Part shown: piece by piece, positions 14,749-30,425 of the stretch
Position numbering within the stretch: the stretch's first letter is position 1
Layout: every line of letters starts with the position of its first letter
NCBI RefSeq assembly: GCF_009826895.1
Contig: NZ_WUMV01000009.1
Location: 310,001-374,000, forward strand
Direction of reading: 5' to 3'
Source: Stappia sediminis
Lineage (GTDB): Bacteria > Pseudomonadota > Alphaproteobacteria > Rhizobiales > Stappiaceae
Length of the DNA stretch: 64,000 nucleotides
Position numbers and translations under genes: made by a program
The notes under the pieces: model-generated
The model's input: only the letters and a program-made list of their open reading frames with translations
The model's database searches: none
What the model was told of the DNA's origin: nothing

Positions 14749-15522
14749 ATGATTGCCGCTTTACGACAACGTTTCCGAATCATTGCCGCGCTCGTCATCC
14801 GCGAGATTACCACCCGCTATGGTACGAGGATTGGCGGTTACGCCTGGGCCATCATAGAGCCTGTAGCCTTTATCGCCACGTTATCCTTGATTTTTTCCGC
14901 GATCGCCCGCACGCCCCCGCTGGGGCGAAGTTTCATGCTGTTTTATGCGACGGGCTATCTTGCATTCTGGATATACCGGACCATGGCGGACCAGGTCAGC
15001 AAGTCGGTCCAGGTAAATAAAGCACTGCTAACCTATCCGGTGGTCTCGCCGCTCGACACGATACTTGCGCGCACAACGCTGCAAATCGTCACGCAGTTCG
15101 TTGTTTGCGTGGCGATATTTTCCGGAATTTTCCTTTTGATCGAACATTTTTCTTCAATAAGCCCGGCTCCGGTGCTTGCCGCCTTTTTTCTTGCGATAAG
15201 CCTTGGCATGGGCATTGGCATTACAAATTGCGTTCTTTTTCATTTCAGCGGTCTATATGAGAAAATCTTTCAAATCGTCAGTCGACCTCTTTTTTTCATT
15301 TCCGGTATTTTCTTTTTACCGGATTCCATTCCACACCCTTACCGCGAATACTTACTCTGGAACCCTATCGCCCATATCGTTTCCCTATTTCGCCAAGGAT
15401 TCTATCCAACCTACCGGGCACATTACATCGATATATCCTATGTCCTGGCCTTGTCGGCCAGCTTCGTTGTGGCCGGCTTGAGCCTCTTGGCAGTGTTCGG
15501 TGCGAAAGTCAGGGAAGCGTGA
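14749..15522 (+). CDS. kpsM: Capsular polysaccharide ABC transporter permease, KpsM type
   Basis: 257 residues with about six hydrophobic membrane segments and the ABC2 opening LVIREITTRYGTRIGGYAWA. GIFFLPDSIPHPYREYLLWNP is the characteristic KpsM/CtrC loop before the last segments. It forms the membrane channel that passes lipid-linked polysaccharide across the inner membrane, with the ATPase encoded next. The stop overlaps the ATPase start by one base (TGATG). First gene of the capsule exporter set kpsM-kpsT-kpsE. The upstream 110 bases hold no gene. Confidence 0.93.
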   Translation: MIAALRQRFRIIAALVIREITTRYGTRIGGYAWAIIEPVAFIATLSLIFSAIARTPPLGRSFMLFYATGYLAFWIYRTMADQVSKSVQVNKALLTYPVVSPLDTILARTTLQIVTQFVVCVAIFSGIFLLIEHFSSISPAPVLAAFFLAISLGMGIGITNCVLFHFSGLYEKIFQIVSRPLFFISGIFFLPDSIPHPYREYLLWNPIAHIVSLFRQGFYPTYRAHYIDISYVLALSASFVVAGLSLLAVFGAKVREA

Positions 15523-16190
15523 TGATACGCCTCGAGCAGGTTTCGAAATCGTTCAAGTTCAAAGGCAAGACCCACCACGTCGTCCGGGATGTATCCTTCA
15601 CCATCCCGCGCGGGCGCAGTGTTGGGCTCATCGGCCGCAACGGCGCTGGAAAATCGACGCTTTTGCGGCTCATAGCTGGAATAGCCGCTCCCGATCGCGG
15701 ACAAATCATCAAGACCGCCAGCGTGTCCTGGCCGCTCGGGTTCGCGGGAAGCTTCCATACCGCTCTCACGGGAGAACAGAATGTAAGGTTTGTTGCCCGC
15801 ATCTATGGCAAGGATACGGAAGCACTTGTTTCTTATGTGGAGGATTTCGCCGAACTTGGCCAGCACTTCCGCAGGCCTGTCGGATCATATTCGTCCGGCA
15901 TGAAGGCTCGACTGGCTTTCGGCGTGAGCATGGGCATCGCGTTTGACTATTACCTCATTGATGAAGTCACGGCGGTGGGCGATACGAATTTCAAGAAAAA
16001 ATGCTCAATGGTGTTCCATGAAAGACTGAAAGAATCAGATATCGTCATGGTTTCCCATTCCGCGGGTACGCTTCGCCAATTTTGCAATTCCGGCATTTTG
16101 CTCGAAGACGGAAAATTGACCTTTTACGAGGACATTGAAGAAGCCTTGCAAATTCATCAGTCAAATATGGCGGAGAGGACCAGGATTTGA
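15522..16190 (+). CDS. kpsT: Capsular polysaccharide ABC transporter ATPase, KpsT type
   Basis: 222 residues from the ATG at 15522; a GTG three bases earlier is possible. Walker A is GRNGAGKST at 38-46, the signature is YSSGMKARLAFG, typical of the KpsT/TagH exporters, and Walker B is YYLIDEVTAVGD. It powers export of the polymer through KpsM. Tightly coupled with the permease upstream and the KpsE-like gene 4 bases downstream. Confidence 0.94.
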   Translation: MIRLEQVSKSFKFKGKTHHVVRDVSFTIPRGRSVGLIGRNGAGKSTLLRLIAGIAAPDRGQIIKTASVSWPLGFAGSFHTALTGEQNVRFVARIYGKDTEALVSYVEDFAELGQHFRRPVGSYSSGMKARLAFGVSMGIAFDYYLIDEVTAVGDTNFKKKCSMVFHERLKESDIVMVSHSAGTLRQFCNSGILLEDGKLTFYEDIEEALQIHQSNMAERTRI

Positions 16191-16194
16191 GTCT

Positions 16195-17523
16195 ATGGCT
16201 ATAAACGAACCTGAAGCCTCAAACGTGGGAAAGGTTTCCGGCCTCGCGGAAAATGGGAACCGCCGAAGTTCGGAAATTGCCGGGAAAGCGAACGCGTCGA
16301 GAAAACTGGCTGTGGTTGCAGGCAATGCGGTGTCAGCGCGCCTCAGGCACGCCGGCCTCGATCCGATGCAACTGGTTCGAGCGAGATCGGCGGCTGAAGA
16401 AGGCCAGGTCAAAATCCCGCTCCGGCATCGCTGGATGGTCCTGGGTTTCGTTTTCGGCGTGTTGCTTCCAGCGATCGTGGTAACGGTCTACATGGTCTTC
16501 ATTGCGGCGGATCAGTACCATAGCCGCACCGCTTTCGCCGTACGCACAATCGAAAATGCCGGAGCGACGGAACTACTCGGGCTTGTGGTCCAGGGCGGCG
16601 GCGCTTCAACGACATCGGATAGCTATATCATCAGCGATTATCTGCAAAGCCAGGCTGTGGTTGAGGATATTTCCAAGACGCTGGACCTGGAGGCAATCTT
16701 CAATCGGTCGAATTCGGACTGGTATTTCGCCATGGGCGAAGACCTTCCGATCGAAGACAAGGTCGAATACTGGAATACGATGGTTGACGTTAATTACGAC
16801 GCAACTTCAGGCCTGATAACCATCGAAACGCGCGCGTTCGCACCTGAAGACGCGACCGCCATTGCCGACGCCCTGGTCGAAATCAGCGAACGGCTGGTAA
16901 ACCGGCTCGCCGACAAGGCGCATCGCGAGTCTATTCGTTTCGCCAAACAGGAAGTGGCACGCGCCGAGGCGCGGCTGAAAATCTACCGCAAGGAACTCCT
17001 CCAGTACCGGGAAGAAACTCAGGAAATAAGCCCACTGGAAAATGCCAGGATCACGGTCGAGCTGATCGCATCCCTTGAACAGGAACTCACGAAGAACCAG
17101 GCGGAACTCAAGACCCTCAAACAATATCTGGACCCACAGTCTCCGCAGATCCGGATTCTTGAACGCCAGATACTGAGCCTGGAAGAACAGATCAGTTCGG
17201 AACGGCAAAGGTTAGGTGCCGGAAACGGCACATCGGATGTCGCCAGGCGTTCGATTTCCAACCGACTGGCAAGTTACGAAGAGCTGGAAGTGGAACGCGA
17301 GTTTGCGCAAAAGGCTTATACTGCGGCACTTGCCGGTCTTGAAAATGCCCGGGCGGAAGCGGATTCCAAGCAAATTTATCTCGCAGTTTCGCTGCATCCG
17401 TCCCTTTCGGAAGACGCGCAATATCCTTATCGCCTGCTCTCCTCGCTGACGGTATTTCTCTTGCTGTTTGGAGTTTGGCTGGTGTGCGTCCTCACATTCT
17501 ACAATTTCAGGGATCGGAGATAA
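16195..17523 (+). CDS. kpsE: Capsule polysaccharide export inner-membrane protein, KpsE/CtrB type
   Basis: 442 residues from the ATG at 16195. A cytosolic N-terminal tail of about 79 residues precedes membrane segment 80-104; a periplasmic domain rich in coiled coil (about 225-360, e.g. LIASLEQELTKNQAELK) follows; and a C-terminal membrane segment (SLTVFLLLFGVWLVCVLTF) near 413-432 ends it. This is the polysaccharide co-polymerase class 3 layout, bridging the ABC exporter to an outer-membrane channel (KpsD/Wza). No KpsD homologue is in the window. The N-terminal tail is longer than usual and low in complexity. Confidence 0.92.
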   Translation: MAINEPEASNVGKVSGLAENGNRRSSEIAGKANASRKLAVVAGNAVSARLRHAGLDPMQLVRARSAAEEGQVKIPLRHRWMVLGFVFGVLLPAIVVTVYMVFIAADQYHSRTAFAVRTIENAGATELLGLVVQGGGASTTSDSYIISDYLQSQAVVEDISKTLDLEAIFNRSNSDWYFAMGEDLPIEDKVEYWNTMVDVNYDATSGLITIETRAFAPEDATAIADALVEISERLVNRLADKAHRESIRFAKQEVARAEARLKIYRKELLQYREETQEISPLENARITVELIASLEQELTKNQAELKTLKQYLDPQSPQIRILERQILSLEEQISSERQRLGAGNGTSDVARRSISNRLASYEELEVEREFAQKAYTAALAGLENARAEADSKQIYLAVSLHPSLSEDAQYPYRLLSSLTVFLLLFGVWLVCVLTFYNFRDRR

Positions 17524-17606
17524 CGGTCCCGACGGTCGGGCATATTACCGCCTCTCCAACCGGAGGAGTACGCGGGCATATGTCGCCGTCGGGGAATCTG
17601 CCAGCT

Positions 17607-17826
17607 AGAGCGCGTCTTGTTTAATCGGAATCACCGGACGCGCTCTATCTATTTGATATTGTGCATGTCCTTGCCCCAAAACCGGTTCCCACTTTTGGGG
17701 GACATGCTCTAGAGCATATCCCGCATGATCCGAACAGGATTTCGCGATAAGGAAATGCTCAAGATATTGAATCTGTAGCGAACTCTAATCACGAAAGCGG
17801 TTCCGTTTTCGTGGAAAGCACTCTGG
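17607..17826. repeat. Rhizobial intergenic mosaic palindromic repeat
   Basis: The gap after kpsE (17524-17894) holds no gene but a composite repeat. Part one is a 10-bp inverted repeat AGAGCGCGTC/GACGCGCTCT at 17607-17646. Part two is a long imperfect hairpin around CCCCAAAACCGG/CTTTTGGGG at 17663-17707. Part three at about 17711-17826 (AAATGCTCAAGATATTG, CGTTTTCGTGGAAAGCACTC) matches the element at 49071-49143. This build is typical of RIME-like repeats in Rhizobiales. Confidence 0.75.
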
Positions 17827-17894
17827 AAGCGGTCAGGGTTCGATGTGCTTAGACGTGTTCAAGGTCCGCCCACAAAACCCACCAAGAAGAATTT

Positions 17895-18875
17895 ATGCCC
17901 CTTCCGGTTAGTCAATCCAATGTGTTCGCCGTTTCTGTAGCCGACCGCGGGCTCTGGCGTCAGAAAAAGCTGCTCGAGGCCTTTCTGGGCGGGCCTGTCG
18001 TCAGGGACTTCGCTCCGCTACGTGCAAAAAATGCCGTACGAATTGGCTGGGGGCGCAAGGCGAGTGGCCTTCGCGCGGAGCGCATTGGTATGCGAGCCGG
18101 ACAGGCCGTATGGCGGTTGGAGGACGGGTTCCTGCGATCATGGAACCTTGGTCATGTCGACCCGCCGCTTTCGCTTGTCGTGGACGATGTCGGGATTTAC
18201 TACGATTGCCATAGGCCATCCCGTCTGGAGCGGCTCTTGAGTTCCCCGCTTGCCCCTGAACAGTCTGCGCAAGCTGTTGAAATCATTCGTGCATGGCGGA
18301 ATTCACGGGTCTCGAAGTATAACTTTCAGCCCGATTATGCCGGATCGCTTCCCGAGAATTTCGTCCTCGTCGTCGATCAGACGCTCAACGACCATTCAAT
18401 CCGCTTCGGCGCAGGCGATGGGAGTTCATTCGAACGAATGCTGAAAAGTGCGATCCGCGATTATCCCGGCCATACAATCCTCGTAAAAACTCATCCGGAT
18501 GTCATGGCGGGCAGGAAGGCCGGCTACTTTGACGCAGACGTCGCGAAAATTTCGCCCAGAGTCCGCCTTTTCGCAGAAGCCGTTCATCCGGCTCGCCTCA
18601 TCGCGGAAGCGGACGCGATCTACACGGTCACGTCCCAGCTTGGCTTTGAGGCCCTCCTATGGGGAAAGCCGGTGCACACATTCGGCATGCCTTTTTATGC
18701 AGGGTGGGGTTTGACGGAAGACGATCAAAGCCCACCCACGCGCCGTGGAAGGGCGACGCTTGAGGCACTTGCCCACTCTGCGCTCATTGAATATCCGCTA
18801 TATTGCACTCCGTCTGGCGAACCCACGACGTTCTGGGAGACGGTCCACCGACTAAGCCGCCAATCACCGGCTTGA
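17895..18875 (+). CDS. Half-length KpsC-like capsule glycosyltransferase (Capsule_synth)
   Basis: 326 residues. Hallmarks of the capsule-synthesis family are WGRKASGLRAERIG near residue 52, LEDGFLRSW near 75, KTHPDVMAGR near 200, and SQLGFEALLWGKPVHTFG and MPFYAGWGLTEDD near 247-277. In E. coli, KpsC has two such halves that build the beta-Kdo linker between phosphatidylglycerol and the capsule; this protein is a single half, so one of the two transferase activities is either absent or encoded elsewhere, or it acts as a KpsC half paired with another protein. It follows kpsMTE after the repeat and is in the same direction. CMP-Kdo is the expected donor. Confidence 0.88.
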   Translation: MPLPVSQSNVFAVSVADRGLWRQKKLLEAFLGGPVVRDFAPLRAKNAVRIGWGRKASGLRAERIGMRAGQAVWRLEDGFLRSWNLGHVDPPLSLVVDDVGIYYDCHRPSRLERLLSSPLAPEQSAQAVEIIRAWRNSRVSKYNFQPDYAGSLPENFVLVVDQTLNDHSIRFGAGDGSSFERMLKSAIRDYPGHTILVKTHPDVMAGRKAGYFDADVAKISPRVRLFAEAVHPARLIAEADAIYTVTSQLGFEALLWGKPVHTFGMPFYAGWGLTEDDQSPPTRRGRATLEALAHSALIEYPLYCTPSGEPTTFWETVHRLSRQSPA

Positions 18876-19020: not shown

Positions 19021-19833
19021 TCACCAATTCAGGTCGGTCTCATAGCCAAGGTCGATCAGCGCCTGGCCATAACGCGCCTTGAAGACTTCGCGAATTCTGT
19101 CCGTGAAATGCTCCTGCCACGGCCCACTTTCCGGGTTGGCGAAGGTCCTGGAAAGATCGATACCCTCCACTTCCGCAATCCCGAGAAATTCAAAAATACG
19201 CTGCAGATATTCCTGCGGATCGCGCGAGAAATCTTCAAGCTTGATGGTCAGGATCCGTTCATCGTCAAAATTTCCAAGCACCTGATCCTCAATGACCGCT
19301 CGGCTTATGTTGTCGAGTTCGTGCAGGATGCCGTCTTCCTTGGAAGCACTGAGCAAAACAGGCCTATCCCGCTTCAGTTGCTCCCAGATCCAACCATTGA
19401 ATTCTGTAACATGGCCTTCCCTATGATGAAAATAATCCGACACCAGCACCTGCCGCGGATCGCGGATTATTCTGACCCCCTTCCAATTGTCGGTTTCAGA
19501 CTTGATCCGGTCGAGGGATCTCTCGGTGGAATTCGAGAACAGTACGACATCGCGACCGTCGCGGCCTATATTCGCAAGGTCGATATTCTGAAGGTCCAGG
19601 TCATCCAAATTCAAACCAAACCTGAATGGAGCTTCCTTGATCTTGTAGCTTCTTACGCGCGCATCGAGTTTTTTCGCAATGCGCTTGAAAATTTCGCTTC
19701 TGAACAGGCGGGACGCGCATTTGTGGTGCCCAAAGAAAACGATACAGTTCGGCACGCTTGCATGATCGGGAACTGAGATAGACTCCGCTGCCTTTGCCCC
19801 ATGACCGGAAGAGGCCGGCGCTGCCGCTTTCAT
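19021..19833 (-). CDS. Sulfotransferase-family protein
   Basis: 270 residues from the ATG at 19833, which overlaps the stop of the upstream gene as ATGA and has GGAGAGG before it. The 5'-phosphosulfate loop is FFGHHKCASR at 33-42 and the 3'-phosphate motif is RIIRDPRQVLVSDYF at 121-135 with the conserved R124 and S132. The C-terminal GPWQEHFTDRIREVFKARYGQALIDLGY is the usual closing helix. It should transfer sulfate from PAPS to a glycan hydroxyl in the cytoplasm. It is coupled to the giant glycosyltransferase/methyltransferase gene, so the capsule repeat or its end is probably sulfated (inference). Confidence 0.88.
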   Translation of the reverse strand: MKAAAPASSGHGAKAAESISVPDHASVPNCIVFFGHHKCASRLFRSEIFKRIAKKLDARVRSYKIKEAPFRFGLNLDDLDLQNIDLANIGRDGRDVVLFSNSTERSLDRIKSETDNWKGVRIIRDPRQVLVSDYFHHREGHVTEFNGWIWEQLKRDRPVLLSASKEDGILHELDNISRAVIEDQVLGNFDDERILTIKLEDFSRDPQEYLQRIFEFLGIAEVEGIDLSRTFANPESGPWQEHFTDRIREVFKARYGQALIDLGYETDLNW

Positions 19834-22800
19834 TTCGCCTCTCCGGAGTTCCCGGCCCGCTCGGCAGGAGAACCATCGGCAATCCTGGACTCGGCTGCCA
19901 GGTCCTGAGAGGAAGAAACACGTCGAAGAATACCGGTCCGCCACTCGCCGCCGATCCACTGCCAGCGTCCGTCCGCGCGCACGACATCGTCCACGAAAGG
20001 CTTGATTGCCGGCCAGTCGGTCGTGTCGTAGTCGTCGAATACGAGCAAGCCGCCAGGCCTCACCATATCCCCGTAAAGCTCGAAGTCTCTCGTCACACCC
20101 GCAAGGCTGTGATCGCCGTCGATAAGGACGAAGTCGTACAATCTGTCGCCGGCCATCCCTAAGGCTTCTTCGCTATCGCTATAGTGCTGGATGATCCTGT
20201 AGTCGCTTTCGGGAATTGAAAGCGCCGACAGATTGCCCTCAAGCACATCCCGGTTCACTGGCATGCCTGTGGCAGAATCTGCGCCAGCGTTGTAATAGCC
20301 ATCTAGCGGGTCTATCAGCGTGAGGGAAACACGCGTCCCGAAATCGGCTGTCTTGTAAAGGGCCGCAGCACCGATCCCGAACAGTGTACCTATTTCCAGA
20401 ACTTCGATGGTTTCCTTGCCTAGGGAGCGCAACGCAAGCGTACGCAGCATCGCAGCCTGGATGGTAGTAGCAAGGCGTCCATCGCAGATCTGTTCGACAT
20501 TGCAGATCTTGTTGGCAATGTAGCTGAGCGCCTTCCGGTTTCGCGGAAGCCCGAAGGTCGGAATCCAGAACTCCAGAATCCGCTTGATATCGGTATCGTT
20601 CAGATATCTCAAATGCCCGTTCGCGCCGGCGGAATTGGCCCCGGACAGGAGAGAGAATCTCTTGTTTTGAACATCGGCATTACTCTTGATGTCCTTGGCC
20701 ACCGCAGCAATCTGCGCGTCGAAGCGTTTGGTCACCTTGTTCAGGTCCGCGTCGGCTTTATCGATCGCACGCTTCACCCATCCATCCGGCCCGAGAGCCG
20801 GATCGGCCGATTTTTCTCCACCTCCATTGCCGGAACCGAGCTGAATTGCACGATTCAGATATTCCACTTCGCGTTTCACCACGGCATCGAGCCGCTCGAA
20901 AGCATCGTTCAGCATTCTTACGGATTCGATGCCTTGCGCACTGGAGGCTGACATCCGCTCACGCAGATCCTCAGCAGTTTCCGCGAATCGCTCTTCCGCA
21001 CCTTCAATCCGCTCACGCAACTCCGCCGCGATCTTTTCCATATCGCCTTCGAGGTGGCGCCCTTCGATATCCGCGATCCGCCTTTTCAACTCATCAACGG
21101 CGGCATCGATCCGTTTCCTGGCGAATTCCTCGGCATCCGACCTAGAAAGCTCGATTTGCCGCCCCAAATCCGCAGCAACTTTCCTGGCATCATCCCCTTT
21201 GGCCAAATGCGCGATTTCCGTCTTGGCCGCTTCCAACGCCCGCGAAAGGCGATCGATATCCCGCTGCTGCTTCTTCACCGTTCCACGGAGGTCGTTAATG
21301 GCAACGCGCCTTTCCCGCCGGTTACGGTTCCCGAGATATTGGCCATGCGCCACGGTCAGGAACAGCACGCTCCACCCGGCAAAGACGGATACCGCAACCG
21401 CAAGCCAGGGAGAGCGCAATTCCGGATACATGAAATAGCCGGCGACGAGCCCGGCAAGGGTTAAGAGCCAGACCCCGCCCCAACCAAGAATACGTTTGGA
21501 GAGCCACAAACACCCGAAATAAACAGTATCGACAATCAATGAAAAAGTCGGGAACCGTCGCTCGAAAGTTCCCACCTTCGTGCCGCTCATCGCTTGAGTA
21601 TCGTCCTTCTTCTTTGCATCCATGGAATCATTCACGCTACCGGGAACCTCTTTACCTGAATTCCCCGCAGGCTTTACGTCAGTATTTGGAATATTCCCGA
21701 GCAGTTCCCCTGCTCCCTCCGGCTGCTTCGTATTGGCTTGTCGGTCACCGTTCCAGTTCGTCTCCTTCACGGAAGTGAAAGGGCTGTCACTCCTGCCCGC
21801 CGCCGGCGACCTCCGTGCATAAGTGGCTCGGTATTTTTCAAGATTGGGCAATCGCGAAAAGCAATTCGTCTCCAGGTCAATTTGACGAATACAAGAATCA
21901 AATCTATCGCCATCAACAGGTTTATTCCTGTTTTGTAAAATATTCTCCAGCGCATCGGCAATATTAATTGCGGAATCTGCAGCTCCCAAATTACAATGCT
22001 CTGACAAAAACTCCCGAGATTTTTCTTGGCTGCAGAAATATTCTCTCTTTCTCAATATTTCCGTTAATCTTTCTTGGTCTTCACAATATAAATAAGCTTC
22101 TTTTGGATCTTTAAATTTATCTACTTTCTCCGAATGTGGATTATAATAAATTACCGGTACATTTTTTGCCAAGGCCTCAAGAATGCCCGAGGCAAATTTT
22201 TGTACGGTGACGTCTACTTCATCCAATAGCTCATAAAAACTCTTATCGGATACGAATTCACTACAGCTTTTTCCGAGATCGGCAGGATGACGCGAAACAA
22301 TCGGTTCAAATCCTGCTCGTTTCACTGCATCTACAGCAGACTCCAGCCAATCATCGCGATGCTCGACAAGAACCCCATAAGAAAAATTAGAATTGATCAG
22401 ACATTTTTTACGAACATCACCCGCTTTTTTTCCGGAGCCCTCGTTAGCCAAGGCCTCGATGCGCGGTATCCCGCCAATAAAAATCGTCTGCTCGCTATCC
22501 TTGAAATATTTTGCGTCGAATTTGCCAGGCAGAATAACATTGGACACAGTCCGGTAAGCATGCCTTTCCCGGCCGACGTCTTCATCCCAATAATCTTGAA
22601 TACCTTCGACAATACCCACCGTCGAAATATTCGCCTCATTCGCGGCAAGCAAAACGCTTCTCAGTATCGGGTCCCAGTCATTGAAACAGACTGCAATTTC
22701 AGGGCGTATCTCCGACAGCACGAAATTGCTGAATGAAACCAATTCCAGGCCGAGCTCTTTCGCCTTTGAACGAACACGTTCGTCACGATAATACGCAGAA

Positions 22801-24035
22801 AAATCAACAAGTATCGAACTGATATTTCTACGCTCCAGTTCTTCCTTTATTAGTGCATACGTCCACACGTGATAATCTTTATGTGGGAAAAACGCTACGC
22901 GCACTTGTCTCTGGCGGTTGTAGTCCCAAGTAAGTCTACCGATCAGACGTTCGAAAACATCCTCATTGACCTTGCATTTCTTTCCAGGCGCCTCCAAGCT
23001 CCCGAAGCTCTCCGCGCATGGCATTCTGACGGCCGTTTCTATCGCCGCGATCTTTTCCGACAACGCACGCCAATTCTGAGACTCGCGGACGAGACTTCCC
23101 GCATAATATCGCTCGACCCCGCGCCACAGGCCCTTGCCAATATCGCGATGCTTGCTGATGAATGTAGTAATATCCGGAAGCTGCCGTCTGAGATTATCGA
23201 CGACCTCACTCACCTCGGCTTCGGTCGCAGCCAGCATGCCGTTGAATTCAAGAATTCTGTTTACCGACTTGATCTGATAATGAAGTTTTTGCCAAGCGCT
23301 TGATCTTGGATACGTCCGGGGAACCGACGTCCAGTCTTCATAGCTGCTTTTGATCAACTGCAAACTGACGTCCAGGTGCTTTTCCGGACCATTGCGAATC
23401 ATGCTGTTTGCTCTCGCCCGATACGTTATCGTTTTCCGTTTCGTAGGCAAGAACATGTAGCCGGCCCGAAGTATCCGTAGCCACAGATCAAAATCTTCGG
23501 CTTGCTTCAGGGATTCATCAAACCCACCAATTTTATTGAATATTGTCCTTTTCAGCATTGGTTGATTTGCGTTAAACGGACATTGGCCGGAGGAAGATAG
23601 AAAATCCACTACACTGCCGCTGAATTCCGATGAAGACGGCGCTTCGAGTACGCTCTCGCCAATCGTAACGCTTCCAGCGTACACGCCTGCCACATCTTCG
23701 GCCGATCGATGCAAATGCGTGACGCGATCTTCTATCGAGTCAGCCATCAACAAATCATCAGAATCCAGAAAGCAGATGAACTCGCTGCTTGCAGCCCTAA
23801 CGCCCGAGTTGCGCGCAGCGGATAAACCTGAATTCGCTCGATGATTTACAACTTTTATTCTTTTATCTTTACGCGCATATTTACTTATAATACCAGCGGT
23901 AGCGTCCGTCGAACCATCGTTGACTGCGATTATTTCAATGTTTTCATATGTTTGCCTTAAGATACTTTCAAACGTACTTTCCAAATACTGCTCAGAATTA
24001 TAACACGGCACTACAATGGAAACGCTCGGGTACAT
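19830..24035 (-). CDS. 1401-residue fusion: GT2 glycosyltransferase, GT-B-like domain, membrane anchor, coiled coil, methyltransferase
   Basis: Domains in order: GT2 at 1-215 (SIVVPCYNSEQYLES, VNDGSTDAT, LDSDD at 90-94 and QAEDFDLWL at 178-186); a second GT-B-like or capsule-synthesis-like part at about 378-700 (SRHPADLG near 581, SGILEALAKNVPVIYYNP near 616-633); a polar linker 720-825; two to three membrane segments within 828-897; a heptad-rich coiled coil at about 905-1120; and a class I methyltransferase at about 1190-1375 (EVLEIGTLFGIGAAAL, LIDGDHS, GGLLVFDDYDTTDW). Uncommon architecture. It may extend the glycan, then methylate and so cap it, with the coiled coil as spacer, as known for WbdD-type chain-length control; this role is inference. 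The stretch 21.8-22.9 kb is AT-rich compared with its ends, so the gene may be a recent assembly. It is followed by the sulfotransferase with a 4-base overlap. Confidence 0.9.
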   Translation of the reverse strand: MYPSVSIVVPCYNSEQYLESTFESILRQTYENIEIIAVNDGSTDATAGIISKYARKDKRIKVVNHRANSGLSAARNSGVRAASSEFICFLDSDDLLMADSIEDRVTHLHRSAEDVAGVYAGSVTIGESVLEAPSSSEFSGSVVDFLSSSGQCPFNANQPMLKRTIFNKIGGFDESLKQAEDFDLWLRILRAGYMFLPTKRKTITYRARANSMIRNGPEKHLDVSLQLIKSSYEDWTSVPRTYPRSSAWQKLHYQIKSVNRILEFNGMLAATEAEVSEVVDNLRRQLPDITTFISKHRDIGKGLWRGVERYYAGSLVRESQNWRALSEKIAAIETAVRMPCAESFGSLEAPGKKCKVNEDVFERLIGRLTWDYNRQRQVRVAFFPHKDYHVWTYALIKEELERRNISSILVDFSAYYRDERVRSKAKELGLELVSFSNFVLSEIRPEIAVCFNDWDPILRSVLLAANEANISTVGIVEGIQDYWDEDVGRERHAYRTVSNVILPGKFDAKYFKDSEQTIFIGGIPRIEALANEGSGKKAGDVRKKCLINSNFSYGVLVEHRDDWLESAVDAVKRAGFEPIVSRHPADLGKSCSEFVSDKSFYELLDEVDVTVQKFASGILEALAKNVPVIYYNPHSEKVDKFKDPKEAYLYCEDQERLTEILRKREYFCSQEKSREFLSEHCNLGAADSAINIADALENILQNRNKPVDGDRFDSCIRQIDLETNCFSRLPNLEKYRATYARRSPAAGRSDSPFTSVKETNWNGDRQANTKQPEGAGELLGNIPNTDVKPAGNSGKEVPGSVNDSMDAKKKDDTQAMSGTKVGTFERRFPTFSLIVDTVYFGCLWLSKRILGWGGVWLLTLAGLVAGYFMYPELRSPWLAVAVSVFAGWSVLFLTVAHGQYLGNRNRRERRVAINDLRGTVKKQQRDIDRLSRALEAAKTEIAHLAKGDDARKVAADLGRQIELSRSDAEEFARKRIDAAVDELKRRIADIEGRHLEGDMEKIAAELRERIEGAEERFAETAEDLRERMSASSAQGIESVRMLNDAFERLDAVVKREVEYLNRAIQLGSGNGGGEKSADPALGPDGWVKRAIDKADADLNKVTKRFDAQIAAVAKDIKSNADVQNKRFSLLSGANSAGANGHLRYLNDTDIKRILEFWIPTFGLPRNRKALSYIANKICNVEQICDGRLATTIQAAMLRTLALRSLGKETIEVLEIGTLFGIGAAALYKTADFGTRVSLTLIDPLDGYYNAGADSATGMPVNRDVLEGNLSALSIPESDYRIIQHYSDSEEALGMAGDRLYDFVLIDGDHSLAGVTRDFELYGDMVRPGGLLVFDDYDTTDWPAIKPFVDDVVRADGRWQWIGGEWRTGILRRVSSSQDLAAESRIADGSPAERAGNSGEAK

Positions 24036-24061
24036 AAATTTTCTCTATTTATACTTGTTAT

Positions 24062-25039
24062 TCAACTGACCAGCGGCTCAATTCGTGGCGTTTGCCCACT
24101 TAGTCCCAGAATATCCAGCGCAAGATTGACGGTCAGGGAATTCACCTTGTGAACCGCATCCGCCGTGTTGGAGCCGTTGTGTGAGCCAAAGATGACGTTT
24201 TCGAATTCGCGAAGCGGATTGCCCGGCGAAAGCGGCTCATCCTCGAAAACATCGAGTGCGGCGGAAGATACGCGTCCGCTGCGCAGCGCCGGAACGAGCG
24301 CGGCTTCATCGATGATCGGCCCTCGCGCTACGTTTACGAGCCTCACGCCCTCCTTCATCGCTCCGAACGCATCTGCATTCAGAAGATGATGGCTGCTCTC
24401 GGTCAAGGCGCAGGTAACGACGATAAAATGCGACCGTTCGAGGAGCTCCGGAAGGCTCACCTGTGTCGCGCATGCGTCCTGCATATCGTCATCGCCGATC
24501 TTCGCCGGATCCGAGCCGATCACGCGCATCCCACAGGCATTCAGGCGGCGGCAGACCGCGCGGCCGATACCGCCAAGCCCGATGACGCCCGCGGTCTTGC
24601 CGCTAAGCGTGGTTCCTTCCACCTTGAGCCAGCCACCTGCCTTGACCGACTCGTGAATGCGCAGGAAATCACGCGCCAGGGCGATCACATACCCCATGGC
24701 GAGATCCGCGACCTCGTCGGAAAAAACCCCCGGTGTGTTGTAGACCGGGATGCCGAGTTCCTTTGCCGCTGCCTTGTCGATGCTGTCGGTGCCGATTCCC
24801 CACTTCACCACCGCCTTCAGGCCATCGGCCTTGCCGGCCTCAAGCGTCGCACGGTCGATAAAGTCGTCGCCCGCGATGACCACCGAGTGGCCCCGGATCG
24901 CGACGAGCATCTCCTCGGCGGCGAGCTGCTGTCCCTTGATTTCGGGAATGGTGACAGACACGCCATGCGCTTCGAATACCGAGGCAAACCTGGCGAAATG
25001 CCGTATCAGATGACCGCAGGTAACCAGAACCTTGCTCAT
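24062..25039 (-). CDS. D-2-hydroxyacid dehydrogenase, phosphoglycerate dehydrogenase type
   Basis: 325 residues. NAD-binding loop GLGGIGRAVCRRL near 154-166; catalytic residues Arg in VNVARGP, Glu in VFEDEP and His in GSHNGSN are all present. It lacks the ACT domain of full SerA, as expected for a pathway-specific paralogue. It overlaps the cytidylyltransferase stop by 4 bases (start at 25039, that gene ends at 25036), so the two are translationally coupled. The pairing suggests that a 2-oxo or 2-hydroxy acid is oxidised or reduced and the product is later activated with CMP, but the actual substrate cannot be read. Confidence 0.9.
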   Translation of the reverse strand: MSKVLVTCGHLIRHFARFASVFEAHGVSVTIPEIKGQQLAAEEMLVAIRGHSVVIAGDDFIDRATLEAGKADGLKAVVKWGIGTDSIDKAAAKELGIPVYNTPGVFSDEVADLAMGYVIALARDFLRIHESVKAGGWLKVEGTTLSGKTAGVIGLGGIGRAVCRRLNACGMRVIGSDPAKIGDDDMQDACATQVSLPELLERSHFIVVTCALTESSHHLLNADAFGAMKEGVRLVNVARGPIIDEAALVPALRSGRVSSAALDVFEDEPLSPGNPLREFENVIFGSHNGSNTADAVHKVNSLTVNLALDILGLSGQTPRIEPLVS

Positions 25040-25725
25040 TCGGCGAGGCGTCCTTCGGCGCGTTCCCGGTAGACAACTTCTGCGATACGGAAATTGATTT
25101 CCTCGTCTATGTCGATCGCCTCCCAGGGCGACATTTCATACATGTAAGGCCGCGAAGACAGGCGGTTCTTCTTCTCCTCCAGCGTCTTGCCGCTGAAGAT
25201 GTAGATGCAGGAATTTTCTTCGTAGAGCGGCGGCAGGTCCTGCGTGCGCAGCAGTATATCCGGATTGTGGTTGATCGGCCTTGCAAGCTGATCCCACAGC
25301 CTGGTCTGGTATCGGGTTACCGAAAACAGGCTGTCATACGTCGGGTAATTGCGGAAGAAGGTCTCGATCGCCTTATTCACCGTTTGCGCGGTTATCAAAG
25401 GGTTCGTCGAATGCGTCTGGAGATAGAACTCCGACGGCACCTGCGCAATATCATGCAGGAGAACCTCATTCATGGGCGTCTCGCCCGCACGCAGGTGTTC
25501 CGGCCGCTCCAGAAGCACCACATCCGGATAGTGCTCGGCGCATTGATCCCGAATGACCTGCGAATCGGTATCGATGACCACCTTGTCGATCAGCTCGCAC
25601 TGCTTCAAAACGTCCAGAACGTGCTGATATAGTGGTCGCCCGTCGCCGAATGGGCGGAAGTTCTTGCCCTTCACCCGTTCGGAAGAGTGCCGCATAGGCA
25701 TTAGCGCCACGAGGCGATGAACCAT
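25036..25725 (-). CDS. Acylneuraminate/Kdo-family cytidylyltransferase (CMP-sugar synthetase)
   Basis: 229 residues. The nucleotide-binding opening LMPMRHSSERVKGKNFRPFG, the DKVVIDTDSQVI segment, a QTHSTNPLITAQTVNKAI stretch and the acidic metal motif AIDIDEEIN are those of NeuA/KdsB/LegF-type enzymes. It joins a 3-deoxy-2-ulosonic (nonulosonic or related) acid to CMP. No NeuB-type synthase is in the window, so the sugar acid must be made elsewhere. It is coupled to the dehydrogenase downstream. The conserved Arg and Lys of the P-loop-like motif are present. CMP-sugar users could be the KpsC-like gene or the GT42-like domain at 27972-30404. Confidence 0.9.
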   Translation of the reverse strand: MVHRLVALMPMRHSSERVKGKNFRPFGDGRPLYQHVLDVLKQCELIDKVVIDTDSQVIRDQCAEHYPDVVLLERPEHLRAGETPMNEVLLHDIAQVPSEFYLQTHSTNPLITAQTVNKAIETFFRNYPTYDSLFSVTRYQTRLWDQLARPINHNPDILLRTQDLPPLYEENSCIYIFSGKTLEEKKNRLSSRPYMYEMSPWEAIDIDEEINFRIAEVVYRERAEGRLAE

Positions 25726-25766
25726 CGATTGTTCCTCACATGTTTGTCTGATCTTGACTTGGCCAC

Positions 25767-26777
25767 CTACTTCGAGCCGCCCTGGGCGCCAAGCAGTGCC
25801 GCATAGTCGATTTCGAGTGCGCGGTCTTCCCCGGCACCGTCATCGGATGCCTCTTTCGAGGAATTCGATTGTGCTGCGGGGTAGTAAAACCGCTCCTTCA
25901 GGGCTTCGCTCACTTCACCGCCCTGGCGGTGACCGACATATGTTCCCCAGAATTGGTTGAGCCGGAAAAGCAGGATGCTTGCCGCTTCTCGCGAAAGCCG
26001 GCCCTGCCGGAAGGCCTCAATCGCGTCGGAGGCAATATTTCTCACTGAGGCGGTGACGAGTTCGCCTGCGCCAAAACGGATCGTCGGCTCTATATGCTTC
26101 ATCGCTATCGCCTCGCGGCGATATCGGTTGCGAATGCCGGCATACGTTTCGTCATGCACATGAACGATTTCGGCGTCCGCAACATATGCAAGCCGGCCGC
26201 CTGTCTTCTGCATTTCCTTGGCCCACGCGAGATCTTCAAGGCCCGTCAGGGTCTCGTCATACCTGTGCTGGAGCCAGGCGGACCGCCGGACCGCACAGTT
26301 GGCGTTGTTGCAAAAGTGAGAGCGCTGCCTGTTCGTGGATTCCTCGCCGAACCACGCCTTGAATATCTGGTGCTCGGAAAATTTGGTCGCATCGTTGCCG
26401 ACCTGCCGTCCATAGCTCAGCACAACATGCGGATCGGAAAACGGTTCGATGATCCTGGAGATCCAGTCCCGGCGCGTTGGATAGACATGAGCGCTTGCGG
26501 CGAGCAAAATCTCGCCTCGGGCAGCAGCGCAGCCCAGGTTGAGCGAACGGCCGAAGGAAAATTCGGATTTTGCGATCTCCACGATCCTGACACCGAATTT
26601 CTCGGCGATTTCGACCGTCCGGTCGCTCGACCCGGAATCCACCAGAATCACTTCGAAGTCGCGAAAATCCTGCTGCTCCAGCCCGATCAGCAGCTTGCCG
26701 ATGTGCAATTCCTCGTTGAGGCTACGAATTATGACTGAAACTTTAGGGGGTTGGCTCATTTCTGAAATGTCTGCCAC
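25767..26777 (-). CDS. GT2-family glycosyltransferase
   Basis: 336 residues from a GTG at 26777; an ATG at 26759 (MSQPPKVSV) is an equal alternative. GT-A fold: VSVIIRSLNEELHIGKLL, VDSGSSDRT, a metal-site strand with LLAASAHVYPT in place of the usual D-x-D, and GLEDLAWAKEM with the catalytic Glu-Asp. The changed D-x-D (ASAH) is noteworthy but is shared by rhamnosyl and related families. A tail of about 45 polar residues ends the protein. It adds a sugar to a lipid-linked intermediate in the cytoplasm; donor possibly dTDP-rhamnose from rfbCBDA. Confidence 0.87.
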   Translation of the reverse strand: MADISEMSQPPKVSVIIRSLNEELHIGKLLIGLEQQDFRDFEVILVDSGSSDRTVEIAEKFGVRIVEIAKSEFSFGRSLNLGCAAARGEILLAASAHVYPTRRDWISRIIEPFSDPHVVLSYGRQVGNDATKFSEHQIFKAWFGEESTNRQRSHFCNNANCAVRRSAWLQHRYDETLTGLEDLAWAKEMQKTGGRLAYVADAEIVHVHDETYAGIRNRYRREAIAMKHIEPTIRFGAGELVTASVRNIASDAIEAFRQGRLSREAASILLFRLNQFWGTYVGHRQGGEVSEALKERFYYPAAQSNSSKEASDDGAGEDRALEIDYAALLGAQGGSK

Positions 26778-26829: not shown

Positions 26830-27975
26830 TCAATCAGAGACTTTCTTGTCCAATCGGCGCAATACGTCAATGACAAATCTCTCAATTCGGTTTCGATATA
26901 AATCTGCCGGATTGTCAAGAAATAATACTCCCTGATTTGCAAGTTTTTCCCCGTAGGAATTGAGAATTTTTTCTATTTCCGCTAGCGGAGATTCATAATA
27001 TGATTCAAGATATTCTCGTTTAAATTGATATTTTTCTTCTCTTGATAAGTTTTTATAATACTCTTCCTTTATGTTAGAAGAGAAAATACCGTAATTCCGC
27101 TTTCTTTCCTTGAAATAACGCGTCCGTTTCGGGCGAGAATGCCACAAATGAACAGTAAAAATACCCTCAAGCCAAACCGGAATTGTAATAATATTTAAAT
27201 ATTTTCGAAAACCTTCGGTAAATAATGGAGAGACAGCCTTTCCGTCTTTGAGAAATTCTTCAACATCACTCAACTCAAACACTTTTTCCCGAATGCAAAG
27301 CCGGCATATATATTCCAGGTCTTCAAGTCCATGAGAAGAAAAATTTGGATCGAACCCGCCCGATTGAAAATATTTGCTTCGCTCTATCAATATCGTCGAA
27401 GTGTACATGGCGACATGATAGATCAAATCGTATCTGCGCTTTGCGAGAAGCCCCTTCCAAACTTGATCCACAGGCCCGTCGCCCGCCGACACTCCGGCCG
27501 ATAGTGCCTTTTTTCTGGTATAGATTGAGGGAATTATGACGAACGGGTTGCGGTTCCCTTTCAGATACGTGATCGCTTTTTCAACGACAGATTGAGAACA
27601 GATCAGGTCGACATCGTAAAACAGGAGCAGGTCTCGCGAAGCGGCTCTGGCCCCCTCGTGTCTGAGCCGCGCGATGGAGATTTCGGCTCCGCTTTCTTCC
27701 ACGAAGATGACGCGGCAGGCTTTGGAAATTCGCCGGGCCAACGAGCTGAACAGCCGATCTCCGAACCTGTTCCTCACCGCGACCGACACTATGAGCTCCG
27801 CCCCGTCAAACAGCCTCGAATCGATCAGCCGCCGCAGCCGTCTCAAAATTCCCGCAGGACGATAGACAAATCCTATCGGCACCACGACCGACAGGTTGCG
27901 GAACGGCTGGTTGCCGGCCTCCGCGCCCGGTTCCCACGGTCCGGAACCCGTATCTGTCGGTTGGATGGAGTTCAT
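26830..27975 (-). CDS. GT2-like glycosyltransferase of the KfoC/galactosyltransferase C-terminal type
   Basis: 381 residues. VVVPIGFVYRP opens the GT-A fold, FYDVDLI near 117-123 is the metal D-x-D, and SGGFDPNFSSHGLEDLEYICRL near 213-234 is the glycosyltransferase C-terminal signature of chondroitin-type polymerases. The C-terminal third is Lys/Glu rich and its DNA is clearly more AT-rich than its neighbours, a sign of transfer. The start ATGA overlaps the stop of the upstream 810-residue protein, so both are made together. It probably extends the same glycan; the donor is unknown. Confidence 0.85.
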   Translation of the reverse strand: MNSIQPTDTGSGPWEPGAEAGNQPFRNLSVVVPIGFVYRPAGILRRLRRLIDSRLFDGAELIVSVAVRNRFGDRLFSSLARRISKACRVIFVEESGAEISIARLRHEGARAASRDLLLFYDVDLICSQSVVEKAITYLKGNRNPFVIIPSIYTRKKALSAGVSAGDGPVDQVWKGLLAKRRYDLIYHVAMYTSTILIERSKYFQSGGFDPNFSSHGLEDLEYICRLCIREKVFELSDVEEFLKDGKAVSPLFTEGFRKYLNIITIPVWLEGIFTVHLWHSRPKRTRYFKERKRNYGIFSSNIKEEYYKNLSREEKYQFKREYLESYYESPLAEIEKILNSYGEKLANQGVLFLDNPADLYRNRIERFVIDVLRRLDKKVSD

Positions 27976-30404
27976 GCCAAATGGCGGTCATAAAGCCGCG
28001 CGAGTTCGTTCGATATTCCGGATACGAGCGGCTTGTCGCGCGTCGCACGATGTAAATGCAACAAGCAGCGATGCATTGTCTTCCCAAGCGTTTTTTTTGT
28101 TCTGTTGGCCCTGCTTTGTGCGTTTGCCTTCATCTCGAGCCCCAGCAGCCTGAAGATTTCGGTCCTGAAGGTCGCCAAAATGGCGGTTGATGAGAGTTCA
28201 TCCTGCACGCGCATCAAGGCTTCTCGCCGGCCATGTATCGCCGAATTCAATTCGCGCGTGCCGACCGGCAGAAGGAATACGCGAGCCGCGATCGCCTCGA
28301 GGCTGCGAACCGAAAACTCGACCTTCGTCACGCGGCTGGAATAAAGCCGGATCTGATCCACCAGCCTCGGGTCCGGCACCTCCCTCCCCTTGAACGCTTC
28401 GTAGACCGCCAGAAGGCATAGGCGCCGCAGCTTCTCGGCCGAGATACGCTCGCTGGAGATCCCGACGCGGTACTTCAAGGGCAGGTGGATATTCGACGGC
28501 TCGTCCTTGCCGAGCATGTCGAGAACCTCCAGAAGACCCATCGAGTGCCGCCTGAACGCCGAGCCCGTCGCCGAGTTGAAATGCCAGCGATAGGCCGCAA
28601 CGACCTGCTCGACAGGCACCGCCTTGACGCCATGCCGCATCAGCCTGGCCAGATAGAGCCAGTCTTCGCCATATTGCACACCGGCCGGAAAACGCTCCAT
28701 CTTCATGATGTGGGCGGGGCCGATCACGGAATTCAGGTGAAAGCGGCTGTCGAACATCCCCTCGAAACCGATCTCGGAGCGTGCGCCGAACTGGATACCC
28801 AGTTCCCGGCCGTCGTCGCCGATGATTTCGGTTCGGCCGAAGCAGATGCTGCCGACCTCGGCCTGCTCGAGACCGGCGACCCGGACGGACAGGGATTCCG
28901 CCGGCATGGGGTCGTCGGCATCCGCAAAGCAGATATACTTGCCTCTGGCCCGCTCCAGTCCGGCATTGCGGGCGCCCGACACCCCCTGACGCGGCCCCTC
29001 GACAACCTTTATTCTTGCATCCTTCCTCGACAATTCCCTGATGATCTCAAGGGTACGGTCTGTCGAACCATCGTCGATGCAAATAATCTCGAAGTCCTTC
29101 AGCGATTGAGAGCGTATCGTCTCGATCGTGGACCGGACACCCTCTTCAACGTTGAAGGCCGGCATTATGATGCTCACCAGCGGCCTTGCGGATGAGGGTG
29201 CCACCTCGCCAGCGCGCGCGACATAGCGCCCCTTGATCGCCGGAATGAAGGAATCGGCAATGCTCGAAACCTCGATGCCGGCATTCTCGATTTCGCGGAG
29301 GTATGCCTTCAGGGTTTGGCAATGCACCTCGTAGTATTCGTCATAGTCGATGCTGAAAAACGCAGGATGGGCATCCTGTATTTCGTCCATCTCCGCATCG
29401 TACTGGAAGTCCTTTGAATGGGACCAGAAATATTCGTTGTTTCCAATCGGGCGGCCATCGAAGCCGGCAAGCGTGATCCGCTTTCCAAGCGAAGCCGCGA
29501 GCGGCAGCAGAAACAACGTCATCACGTTCGAAGTGGCGCCAACGCAGAAGTCTTCCGGAAAGCGAAGGTTCATCCCGTGCGAATTGCTGATCGGCACGGG
29601 GATGAGCTTTTCGTGGAGATCCTCCGGCAGATACGTGAGATACGCGCCATAGTCTCGCATGGGGAATACGTAACAGGAGCCGTAGGTGCGCATCGCATCG
29701 ATCAGATCCTGCCGAAACCTGGCGGCATAGGTGGACGGTCCTGCGTGAAAAATCGGATCCGAGGCGACGATTATGCGCGGCGCCATCTTCTCGAGCACCT
29801 CGCGGTTCCTGATCATGCTGTTGGTGGCGATGAACTCGCCTTCTTCCAACAGGTCGAAATCGACCGAGCTCAGGGATGCCCCGGTGCCGAATATGTAGAT
29901 GTCGTCGGTATCGATCGAAGCGCGGAGCTTCTCGAAACGCTCCCTCGAAAGCTTCAGCTGCTCCGCCGTCCCTTTTCCGTCATTGGATGAAAATTTCAGG
30001 CACAGGCTGGCGGCGTGCTGCACCGCACGATGATCGGCCCGAACGGACAGTGTGTCGCGTTCGGTTGCCAGGCTTCGGTACTCGTCGAGCCTGGACTTCT
30101 CATCCCAGAACCAGAGCACCTTTTCGCCACCGAAACCCTTAACCGTTTCGGCTATCTGGCCCGTCTTGAATATGTGAACTCGCTTTTCCAGCTTCCGTCG
30201 CACCTGGATGACCTGTCGGTCCAGATATGAAGAGCAATCGAGCTCTGGAATCTCCCGGAATACGTCGGAAAACAGAACGTAGCCCGTGTCGGGCCCATCC
30301 GCCGCGCCGGCAAAGTACAGCATTCTGTAGAAATCGTCTTCGATGTTCTCGACTGAGGCAATCTCCGGAAGGACGAATATTACTTTCTTGTATCGAGACA
30401 ACAT
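27972..30404 (-). CDS. Fusion of a GT42/DUF115-like domain and a GT2 glycosyltransferase
   Basis: About 810 residues from the ATG at 30404; a TTG at 30425 would add 7. Numbers below count from that TTG. The first 400 residues contain IYIFGTGASLSSVDFDLL (177-194), a fixed-Asn stretch FIATNSMIRN and CVGATSNVMTLFLLPLAASLGKRI then TLAGFDGR (318-325). This order is that of the DUF115/GT42 (CST-like sialyltransferase) fold. Residues 415-640 are a classical GT2 (SIIMPAFNVEEGV, IDDGSTDRT, FADADDP at 500-506, GEDWLYLARL). A tail of about 170 residues is mostly helical. With a CMP-sugar synthetase nearby, the first domain may use a CMP-activated acidic sugar (inference). Confidence 0.85.
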   Translation of the reverse strand: MLSRYKKVIFVLPEIASVENIEDDFYRMLYFAGAADGPDTGYVLFSDVFREIPELDCSSYLDRQVIQVRRKLEKRVHIFKTGQIAETVKGFGGEKVLWFWDEKSRLDEYRSLATERDTLSVRADHRAVQHAASLCLKFSSNDGKGTAEQLKLSRERFEKLRASIDTDDIYIFGTGASLSSVDFDLLEEGEFIATNSMIRNREVLEKMAPRIIVASDPIFHAGPSTYAARFRQDLIDAMRTYGSCYVFPMRDYGAYLTYLPEDLHEKLIPVPISNSHGMNLRFPEDFCVGATSNVMTLFLLPLAASLGKRITLAGFDGRPIGNNEYFWSHSKDFQYDAEMDEIQDAHPAFFSIDYDEYYEVHCQTLKAYLREIENAGIEVSSIADSFIPAIKGRYVARAGEVAPSSARPLVSIIMPAFNVEEGVRSTIETIRSQSLKDFEIICIDDGSTDRTLEIIRELSRKDARIKVVEGPRQGVSGARNAGLERARGKYICFADADDPMPAESLSVRVAGLEQAEVGSICFGRTEIIGDDGRELGIQFGARSEIGFEGMFDSRFHLNSVIGPAHIMKMERFPAGVQYGEDWLYLARLMRHGVKAVPVEQVVAAYRWHFNSATGSAFRRHSMGLLEVLDMLGKDEPSNIHLPLKYRVGISSERISAEKLRRLCLLAVYEAFKGREVPDPRLVDQIRLYSSRVTKVEFSVRSLEAIAARVFLLPVGTRELNSAIHGRREALMRVQDELSSTAILATFRTEIFRLLGLEMKANAQSRANRTKKTLGKTMHRCLLHLHRATRDKPLVSGISNELARLYDRHLA

Positions 30405-30425
30405 CGCGTTCTGAACTTCGATCAA

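Follow-up and report, generated by a model that had tools for sequence, protein, structure and literature searches.

An exchangeable glycosyltransferase part fused to a membrane hairpin, a predicted rod and a putative sugar O-methyltransferase in a capsule locus of Stappia sediminis

Introduction

In WbdD of Escherichia coli O9a/O8 a long coiled coil (about 20 nm) keeps a methyltransferase off the membrane, and insertions or deletions in the coil shift the length of the glycan chain, the O8 form of the protein being a simple methyltransferase (PMC3482155, PMC5082667). A ruler of this kind can also be built into one chain with glycosyltransferases (GTs), as in Klebsiella pneumoniae O7 ORF6, relatives of which have been reported from alphaproteobacteria, some with C-terminal GT modules (PMC11231755). 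Here we describe a 1401-residue fusion protein, hereafter the giant, from the marine bacterium Stappia sediminis, encoded in a 64,000-nucleotide stretch of contig NZ_WUMV01000009.1 (positions 310,001 to 374,000, assembly GCF_009826895.1; the window), for which an initial annotation had proposed the ruler and terminator logic of WbdD. We report its domains and their order, its operon, a natural exchange of its GT part and a natural variant in the length of its rod, and we weigh what the protein may do.

Results

The GT part of the giant is exchanged in a related operon

The open reading frame of the giant begins with ATG and runs through 1401 codons with no internal stop. It and its parts, in order from the N terminus, are as follows, together with the segment that is exchanged in a second species.

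19830-24035, minus strand: giant fusion gene, GT2 - GT-B - membrane hairpin - rod - methyltransferase, 1401 amino acids
23346-24035, minus strand: GT2 domain of the GT-A type, residues 1-230 (PF00535, AlphaFold2 model, Foldseek)
21906-22907, minus strand: GT-B-like domain, residues 377-710, without a Pfam family (AlphaFold2 model, Foldseek)
21348-21491, minus strand: membrane hairpin, residues 849-896 (hydropathy, charge)
20802-21338, minus strand: long helical rod, probable coiled coil, residues 900-1078 (periodicity, proline-free run, low-confidence model, alignment)
20643-20789, minus strand: second helix between rod and methyltransferase, residues 1083-1131 (low confidence)
19920-20615, minus strand: methyltransferase domain, residues about 1141-1372, with ExG at 1214-1216, DGDH at 1306-1309 and DD at 1334-1335
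21520-24069, minus strand: exchanged segment, without DNA similarity to the otherwise collinear operon of Stappia albiluteola (blastn borders, composition)

Stappia albiluteola F7233 (genome G002) has an operon of the same gene order, the proteins of which are 80-95% identical to those of the window, and among them the giant alone differs. Residues 804-1401 are 69-80% identical between the two species, depending on how gaps are counted, and the methyltransferase region is 89% identical; the N-terminal part of the S. albiluteola giant is another set of modules, with an MptE-like domain (PF01973), weak GT-like matches and a first 270 residues that look SGNH-like by eye and have no Pfam match. 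In blastn the similarity ends at window base 24069, within the last codons of the neighbouring dehydrogenase gene, and restarts at 21520, just before the hairpin. The G+C content at third codon positions (GC3) changes along the gene: in the window it is 0.48 in GT2 and 0.40 in GT-B, the S. albiluteola GT counterpart has 0.37-0.45, and the hairpin, rod and methyltransferase have 0.62-0.67 in the window and 0.60-0.67 over both genomes; window residues 231-371 (0.60) and the linkers (0.52 in the window, 0.47 in S. albiluteola) are exceptions. From the sharp borders and the GC3 values we regard the two proteins as two largely low-GC GT cartridges carried on one hairpin-rod-methyltransferase chassis. 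The sharing of rod and methyltransferase beneath different heads suggests a machine that makes and completes a surface sugar coat and whose heads can be swapped.

The S. albiluteola operon lies on a different contig from the kps genes of that genome, and it may sit on an acquired island. Within 7 kb upstream of it we noted a CRISPR-type array (L014:56-1309; a 32-base repeat present at least 18 times, at a spacing of about 66 bases) and a phage-type integrase gene (L014:4237-5460).

GT domains, hairpin and rod

The content of the chain as initially annotated (a GT2, a GT-B-like part, membrane segments and a methyltransferase) was confirmed by Pfam, hydropathy and AlphaFold2/Foldseek, and structure prediction of the separate parts recovered GT-A, GT-B, helical rod and methyltransferase folds, the models of the last two being of low confidence. 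Membership of the GT2 family follows from the score of PF00535 at residues 6-117 (E = 4e-37, 128 bits against a cut-off of 23.3) together with DSDD at residues 91-94 and ED at 180-181, which we take to be the DxD and ED motifs of GT2 enzymes. The GT-B part gave no match in the Pfam scan. In an AlphaFold2 model of 770 residues, built on a five-sequence alignment of the window protein and four relatives (mean predicted local distance difference test score, pLDDT, 61.5), residues 377-710 form two alternating beta/alpha halves, mostly at pLDDT 65-95 but in a few blocks of ten residues at 37-63; Foldseek aligned 387-389 columns of this part with UDP-GlcNAc 2-epimerases (3ot5, E = 1.7e-9 and 3.1e-9, TMt 0.57 and 0.61), enzymes that we take to have the GT-B fold. 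The model thus points to a GT-B fold with two Rossmann halves. The linker that leads to the hairpin is of low complexity by eye.

The hairpin is predicted to consist of two hydrophobic helices (residues 849-867 and 878-896), with a net charge of +1 before it, 0 in its loop and +4 after it, from which the GTs and the methyltransferase are probably both cytoplasmic, the charge signal on the N-terminal side being weak. Residues 877-1078 contain no proline, and the hydrophobic periodicity of residues 904-1065 exceeded that of nearly all of 2000 shuffled sequences at 3.5 (reached by two) and 3.6 (reached by none), but not at 3.667 (reached by 497). An SMC model matched residues 902-1056 (E = 1.5e-4), far under its cut-off, as coils often do, and a 28-residue a/d scan was non-specific, flagging stretches of the GT domains as well. 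For the long coiled coil of the initial annotation, these data support, but do not prove, a long helical rod that is probably a coiled coil. The predicted span is about 24-27 nm if the rod is fully helical (162-179 residues x 0.1485 nm).

Aligned with that of S. sediminis, the S. albiluteola rod has a single insertion of 57 residues between flanks that are 80-89% identical. Thirty-six residues of the insertion align with the rod that precedes it at a score of 69, against 31.7 +/- 6.1 for shuffled sequences (reached by 0 of 500), and the insertion is therefore at least partly a duplication. In the longer rod the periodicity of 3.6 is above chance (reached by 4/2000 shuffles) and that of 3.667 is not (215/2000); a coil with register breaks could yield such a pattern.

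The methyltransferase resembles MeT1 and MycE

PF13578 (Methyltransf_24) matched residues 1213-1336 (E = 2.6e-12, 48.0 bits against a cut-off of 26.3). In a profile search of PDB sequences the best match was MeT1 of M. hassiacum (6g7d, E = 1.5e-7), followed by MycE (3ssm, E = 1.6e-7), and MeT1 again ranked highest when the model of the domain, of low confidence at a mean pLDDT of 51, was submitted to Foldseek (6g80, E = 7.6e-10, TMt 0.63); in the fold alignments the giant's domain is 17-20% identical to MeT1 and MycE. The profile alignment places DGDH and DD on motifs of both enzymes, of which the MycE counterparts are presumably those for metal binding and the catalytic base. By score and motifs the domain is a PF13578, MeT1/MycE-like putative sugar O-methyltransferase; MeT1 itself transfers a methyl group to a sugar hydroxyl in methylmannose precursors (PMC9883506).

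A methyltransferase of the WbdD type was considered and rejected: MeT1 and MycE rank first, WbdD is not among any of the 51 PDB profile matches, no WbdD chain is among the best 50 of 1411 Foldseek matches of the domain, and the Pfam scan of the giant found no kinase domain.

The operon and the capsule export genes beside it

The genes that flank the giant are listed below, with the identity of the encoded protein to its S. albiluteola counterpart where it bears on the comparison.

14749-18875, plus strand: adjacent capsule export set of a KpsM-like permease, a KpsT-like ATPase, a KpsE-family protein and a Capsule_synth protein (KpsC/S-type)
19021-19833, minus strand: sulfotransferase (PF00685), its start overlapping the stop of the giant (ATGA)
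24062-25039, minus strand: D-2-hydroxyacid dehydrogenase (Pfam; 93%)
25036-25725, minus strand: CMP-sugar-type cytidylyltransferase, the nearest NCBIfam model being PseF, under its cut-off (94%)
25767-26777, minus strand: GT2 glycosyltransferase (95%)
26830-27975, minus strand: GT2-like glycosyltransferase (80%)
27972-30425, minus strand: protein with GT2 at residues 418-543 (86%)

The sulfotransferase (PF00685, E = 1.1e-10) is 82.6% identical in S. albiluteola, and its start at 19833 is common to both homologues. The coupling of the giant to this enzyme, part of the initial annotation, is well supported by the ATGA overlap, present in both genomes, and by a homologue fused at the tip of the coil in a protein of genome G193 (53% identical).

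The gene content at 14749-18875 is that of a KpsMTE (group 2/3-type) capsule pathway, the KpsM and KpsE models being matched under their equivalog/subfamily cut-offs. The set has counterparts in genomes G001, G002 and G027, and PF05159 (KpsC/S-type) occurs again at C18:398-402 kb. From this adjacency we infer that the product of the giant leaves through KpsMTE. CBM-gated export of the Wzm/Wzt type, in which a carbohydrate-binding module (CBM) is part of the transporter, was considered and finds no support here, the 223-residue KpsT-like ATPase having ABC_tran (residues 23-152) as its sole domain.

Genome G001, of the same genus, keeps the flanks of the locus, with kps genes on one side and RmlB/D/A-type and arginase-family genes on the other, around a different cassette, which encodes a protein with weak HAD similarity, a GT2 protein and, each as a gene of its own, a methyltransferase and a sulfotransferase. 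The layout is that of a variable capsule locus. The trio of dehydrogenase, PseF-like cytidylyltransferase and GT2 at 24062-26777 may make and transfer a cytidine monophosphate (CMP)-activated acidic sugar; it also accompanies GT2-GT-B proteins in three other genomes (L016, L037 and L038). In the protein at 27972-30425 the first 400 residues are MptE/DUF115-like by eye (FGTGASL) and have no Pfam match.

Relatives in the sampled genomes

The initial annotation had called for a domain-architecture search; in the sequence searches made here the chassis was seldom seen. It was seen whole in 2/87 genomes of the family. Its methyltransferase region was matched in 12/397 genomes of the order (at E 1e-6), at high identity and full length only in the window genome and S. 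albiluteola, and a chassis profile matched 8/398 genomes of the phylum, all except the window's own over 40-132 positions of the methyltransferase only. The GT-B part was found in 5/397 order genomes (its own and G027, G164, G431 and G117), 1/385 class genomes (its own) and 1/30 genomes of the family of G117. The S. albiluteola cartridge matched 6/220 relatives, outside S. albiluteola in the MptE part only; its matches lie at nine places, and no hairpin was found in the matching proteins of G027, G149 and G164 (contig C1), the check covering all places but two in G164 (contig C13). Among 1442 matching plasmid records no match covered 80% of the query, the best 20 of 1442 all lying in the GT2 part; of the further plasmid searches two gave no match and the others partial matches only (2, 11 and 10 records), with no full relative. 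No relative was found among 22 viral contigs, and a contig scan, by two peptide patterns only, returned one relative among 38 stretches. That this is a common architecture is thus unsupported among the sampled family, order, class and phylum genomes, plasmids and viral contigs.

GT2-GT-B proteins that lack a hairpin are encoded in G027 (861 residues), G164 (808) and G431 (617), each adjoining genes homologous to the dehydrogenase, cytidylyltransferase and GT2 trio; in some genomes, therefore, the GT part can do without the chassis.

Fusions with a parallel layout occur in G117 and G193, which belong to one genus of another family. Genome G117 has two giants side by side (L039:4487-7867 and L039:9414-12785) that share their end at 38% identity over 415 residues. 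One (1126 residues) has the order MptE - weak GT-like part - FkbM methyltransferase - hairpin - short coil, and the other (1123 residues) the order GT2 - window-type GT-B - FkbM methyltransferase - hairpin - short coil. A sulfotransferase gene lies between the two, on the opposite strand. The first giant of G193 (G193a, 1387 residues) is 70% identical to the 1126-residue protein over 1117 residues and has a sulfotransferase appended after the coil; because of this identity we read its single merged hydrophobic peak as the same hairpin. The appended domain is 53% identical to the separate sulfotransferase of the window over 247 residues (E = 6e-95). The second (G193b, 1232 residues, L081:3150-6848) has the order MptE - GT2 - hairpin - 173-residue proline-free stretch - sulfotransferase-like end; the end is unlike the window sulfotransferase, has no Pfam match and gave tblastn matches of 27-31%, three of the matched records being annotated as sulfotransferase. 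In four of the six hairpin-coil giants found, the coil tip thus carries a tailoring enzyme, a methyltransferase in the window and G002 and a sulfotransferase in G193a and G193b. Common descent of the hairpins of the window and of G117/G193 is no more than suggested, with hhalign giving E = 2.7e-4 at 41% probability (E = 0.0016 and 16% with a smaller set) and the pairwise score being reached by 7/300 shuffles. A further chain, at L042:1756-3552 beside an ABC ATPase gene, joins an FkbM methyltransferase, a short coil (by eye) and Methyltransf_24, and is possibly another coil-methyltransferase.

Discussion

Our working hypothesis, which we favour only tentatively, is that the giant acts as a capsule synthase anchored in the membrane and carries the enzyme that finishes its product, the methyltransferase at the tip of the rod, which would cap the chain. 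Two cytoplasmic GT domains, forming an exchangeable cartridge, would add sugars at the membrane; the hairpin would anchor the chain of the giant; and a helical rod of about 25 nm, probably oligomeric, would hold the sugar O-methyltransferase at its far end. Once a glycan is long enough to reach the rod tip, its non-reducing sugar would be O-methylated, and extension would be stopped or the end marked. The coupled sulfotransferase would sulfate the same glycan, and the product would exit through the adjacent KpsMTE exporter. The domains, their order, the operon, the cartridge exchange and the variant in rod length are observed; action of the GTs on a single glycan, methylation at the chain end, control of chain length by rod length and oligomerization of the rod are all inferred.

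The ruler and terminator function of the giant, as proposed by analogy with WbdD, is plausible but unproven. In its favour is the geometry, with GTs and hairpin at the membrane, the methyltransferase at the end of the rod and a natural 57-residue variant of rod length, and the predicted span is comparable with the WbdD coil of about 20 nm (PMC5082667). The analogy did not hold for the methyltransferase, which is MeT1/MycE-like and beside which the Pfam scan found no kinase, nor for the neighbouring transporter, which is of the KpsMTE type and in which no Wzt-type CBM was found.

A number of further observations weigh against the working hypothesis. PF13578 is a generic family, the rod is helical in the AlphaFold2 model at a low pLDDT of 39-48, and in the S. 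albiluteola rod the periodicity of 3.5 is not above chance (566/2000 shuffles reach it). The GT2-GT-B proteins of G027, G164 and G431 stop about 80-110 residues past the matched region, and in three of the four relatives from the other family (both G117 giants and G193a) the FkbM methyltransferase comes before the hairpin, together with the GTs, and nothing was recognized past the short coil of the two G117 proteins, which argues against the coil being a ruler throughout. The methyltransferase probably does not recognize a sugar found only in the product of one cartridge, since it is 89% identical beneath a changed cartridge. The chief difficulty, however, is export. In the known coil-ruler systems (WbdD, WbbB and O7 ORF6; PMC11231755) the cap is recognized by the CBM of Wzt and capping is coupled to export, whereas KpsMT systems recognize the lipid end of the glycan, and their length control is said to need further investigation (PMC12220298). 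The Wzt-type CBM PF14524 was found in none of three genomes (G000, G001 and G002; E 0.001), and since the adjacent transporter is of the KpsMT type, gated export in the style of WbdD is not directly applicable.

Nearly as probable as a capping ruler is a tethered enzyme that methylates residues within the chain. The rod would then only oligomerize and tether, methylation would take place during synthesis, and chain length would result from synthesis and export, as it does in other KpsMT capsules; the KpsMTE context without a CBM agrees with this, as does a review that presumes the length of ABC-dependent capsules to be the outcome of synthesis together with export (PMC12220298). The methyltransferase placed on the GT side of the hairpin, with short coils, in G117a, G117b and G193a, the unfused methyltransferase and sulfotransferase genes at the same chromosomal site in G001 and the constancy of the methyltransferase beneath exchanged GTs point the same way. 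Against it stand the tailoring enzyme at the coil tip in four of six giants and a proline-free rod of 179-236 residues, which exceeds what oligomerization needs.

It is improbable that the giant is a loose gene fusion, brought about by recombination at a capsule hot spot, whose cartridge and chassis have different target molecules and are not mechanically coupled. The sharp exchange borders, the low-GC cartridges in both genomes, the existence of GT2-GT-B proteins without the chassis and the low-complexity linker before the hairpin speak for it; yet the fusion is retained in both chassis-bearing genomes despite different cartridges and within one operon, and a second family again has hairpin and coil fused to a methyltransferase or sulfotransferase. 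An assembly or sequencing error that joined two genes is highly improbable, as only the composition step inside the gene speaks for it and S. albiluteola fuses the same hairpin-rod-methyltransferase in frame to other GT modules, with no stop across the 1401 codons of the giant.

Returning to capping by the rod-tip enzyme, a broader generalization, that a class of alphaproteobacterial capsule synthases combines in a single chain interchangeable GT heads, a constant hairpin-rod chassis and a capping methyltransferase or sulfotransferase at the tip, is in our view unlikely, and its consequences are worth stating. If it were true, termination by a coil ruler, including termination by sulfate caps, would extend to KpsMT capsule pathways that have no CBM, and a swap of heads would change the sugar repeat while the length-setting part stayed. 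Coil-tip sulfotransferases would be a capping chemistry that we did not find in the open PMC literature. Two close natural proteins that differ in their GT head and in 57 rod residues are a ready test of whether the coil sets capsule length, and the same pair allows one to ask whether the sugar repeat depends on nothing but the GT head.

Among described proteins, Klebsiella pneumoniae O7 ORF6 is like the giant in having a methyltransferase, a long coiled coil and two GT modules (there GT2) in one chain, with the methyltransferase at the end of the coil far from the GTs and the coil regarded as a ruler; its order is reversed (MT-kinase-CBM-coil-GT-GT, where MT is the methyltransferase, against GT2-GT-B-hairpin-coil-MT), and it has a kinase, a CBM-like domain and O-antigen Wzm/Wzt export, in contrast to the giant with no kinase found and a KpsMTE neighbourhood (PMC11231755). 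Klebsiella O12 WbbB likewise unites polymerization, termination and a coil ruler in one polypeptide, but its terminator is an N-terminal beta-Kdo transferase, and the accessible text of PMC11231755 describes no methyltransferase in it. WbdD differs in that its polymerase, WbdA, is a separate protein, whereas the giant carries its GTs in the same chain (PMC3482155, PMC5082667). Geobacillus WsaE has a methyltransferase and two GTs in one chain, and a 2-O-methyl cap is proposed to end its glycan; there the methyltransferase is N-terminal, and a coil is not mentioned in the accessible text of PMC2943079. MeT1 and MycE are single enzymes in their PDB entries, unlike the domain of the giant.

A parallel in genomic context is that of E. 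coli group 3 (kps) capsule loci, which hold coiled-coil putative methyltransferases with natural variation in coil length and which we set beside the giant by description only (PMC13171606); coil and methyltransferase in kps-type loci are therefore not confined to the bacteria studied here. On the E. coli plasmid pLR-28_1 the first gene after a kps-type export set (L087:18176-19378), itself followed by GT genes, has a product that weakly matches a coil-type model (ZapB) and in which no methyltransferase or other enzyme domain was found.

The initial statement that no protein of this order had been described holds for the exact order GT2-GT-B-hairpin-coil-methyltransferase, which, like the cartridge exchange, was not found in the open PMC literature; it does not hold for the one-chain logic, published for O7 ORF6, O12 WbbB and WsaE. 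A ruler and terminator fused to the polymerase is thus not new in kind. What is new is the collinear operon of S. albiluteola, where replacement is confined to the GT part of the giant and the chassis persists, and, in addition, a rod that is longer by 57 residues, distant relatives with a sulfotransferase at the coil tip and the setting of the whole beside a KpsMT-type transporter, with no Wzt CBM found in three genomes.

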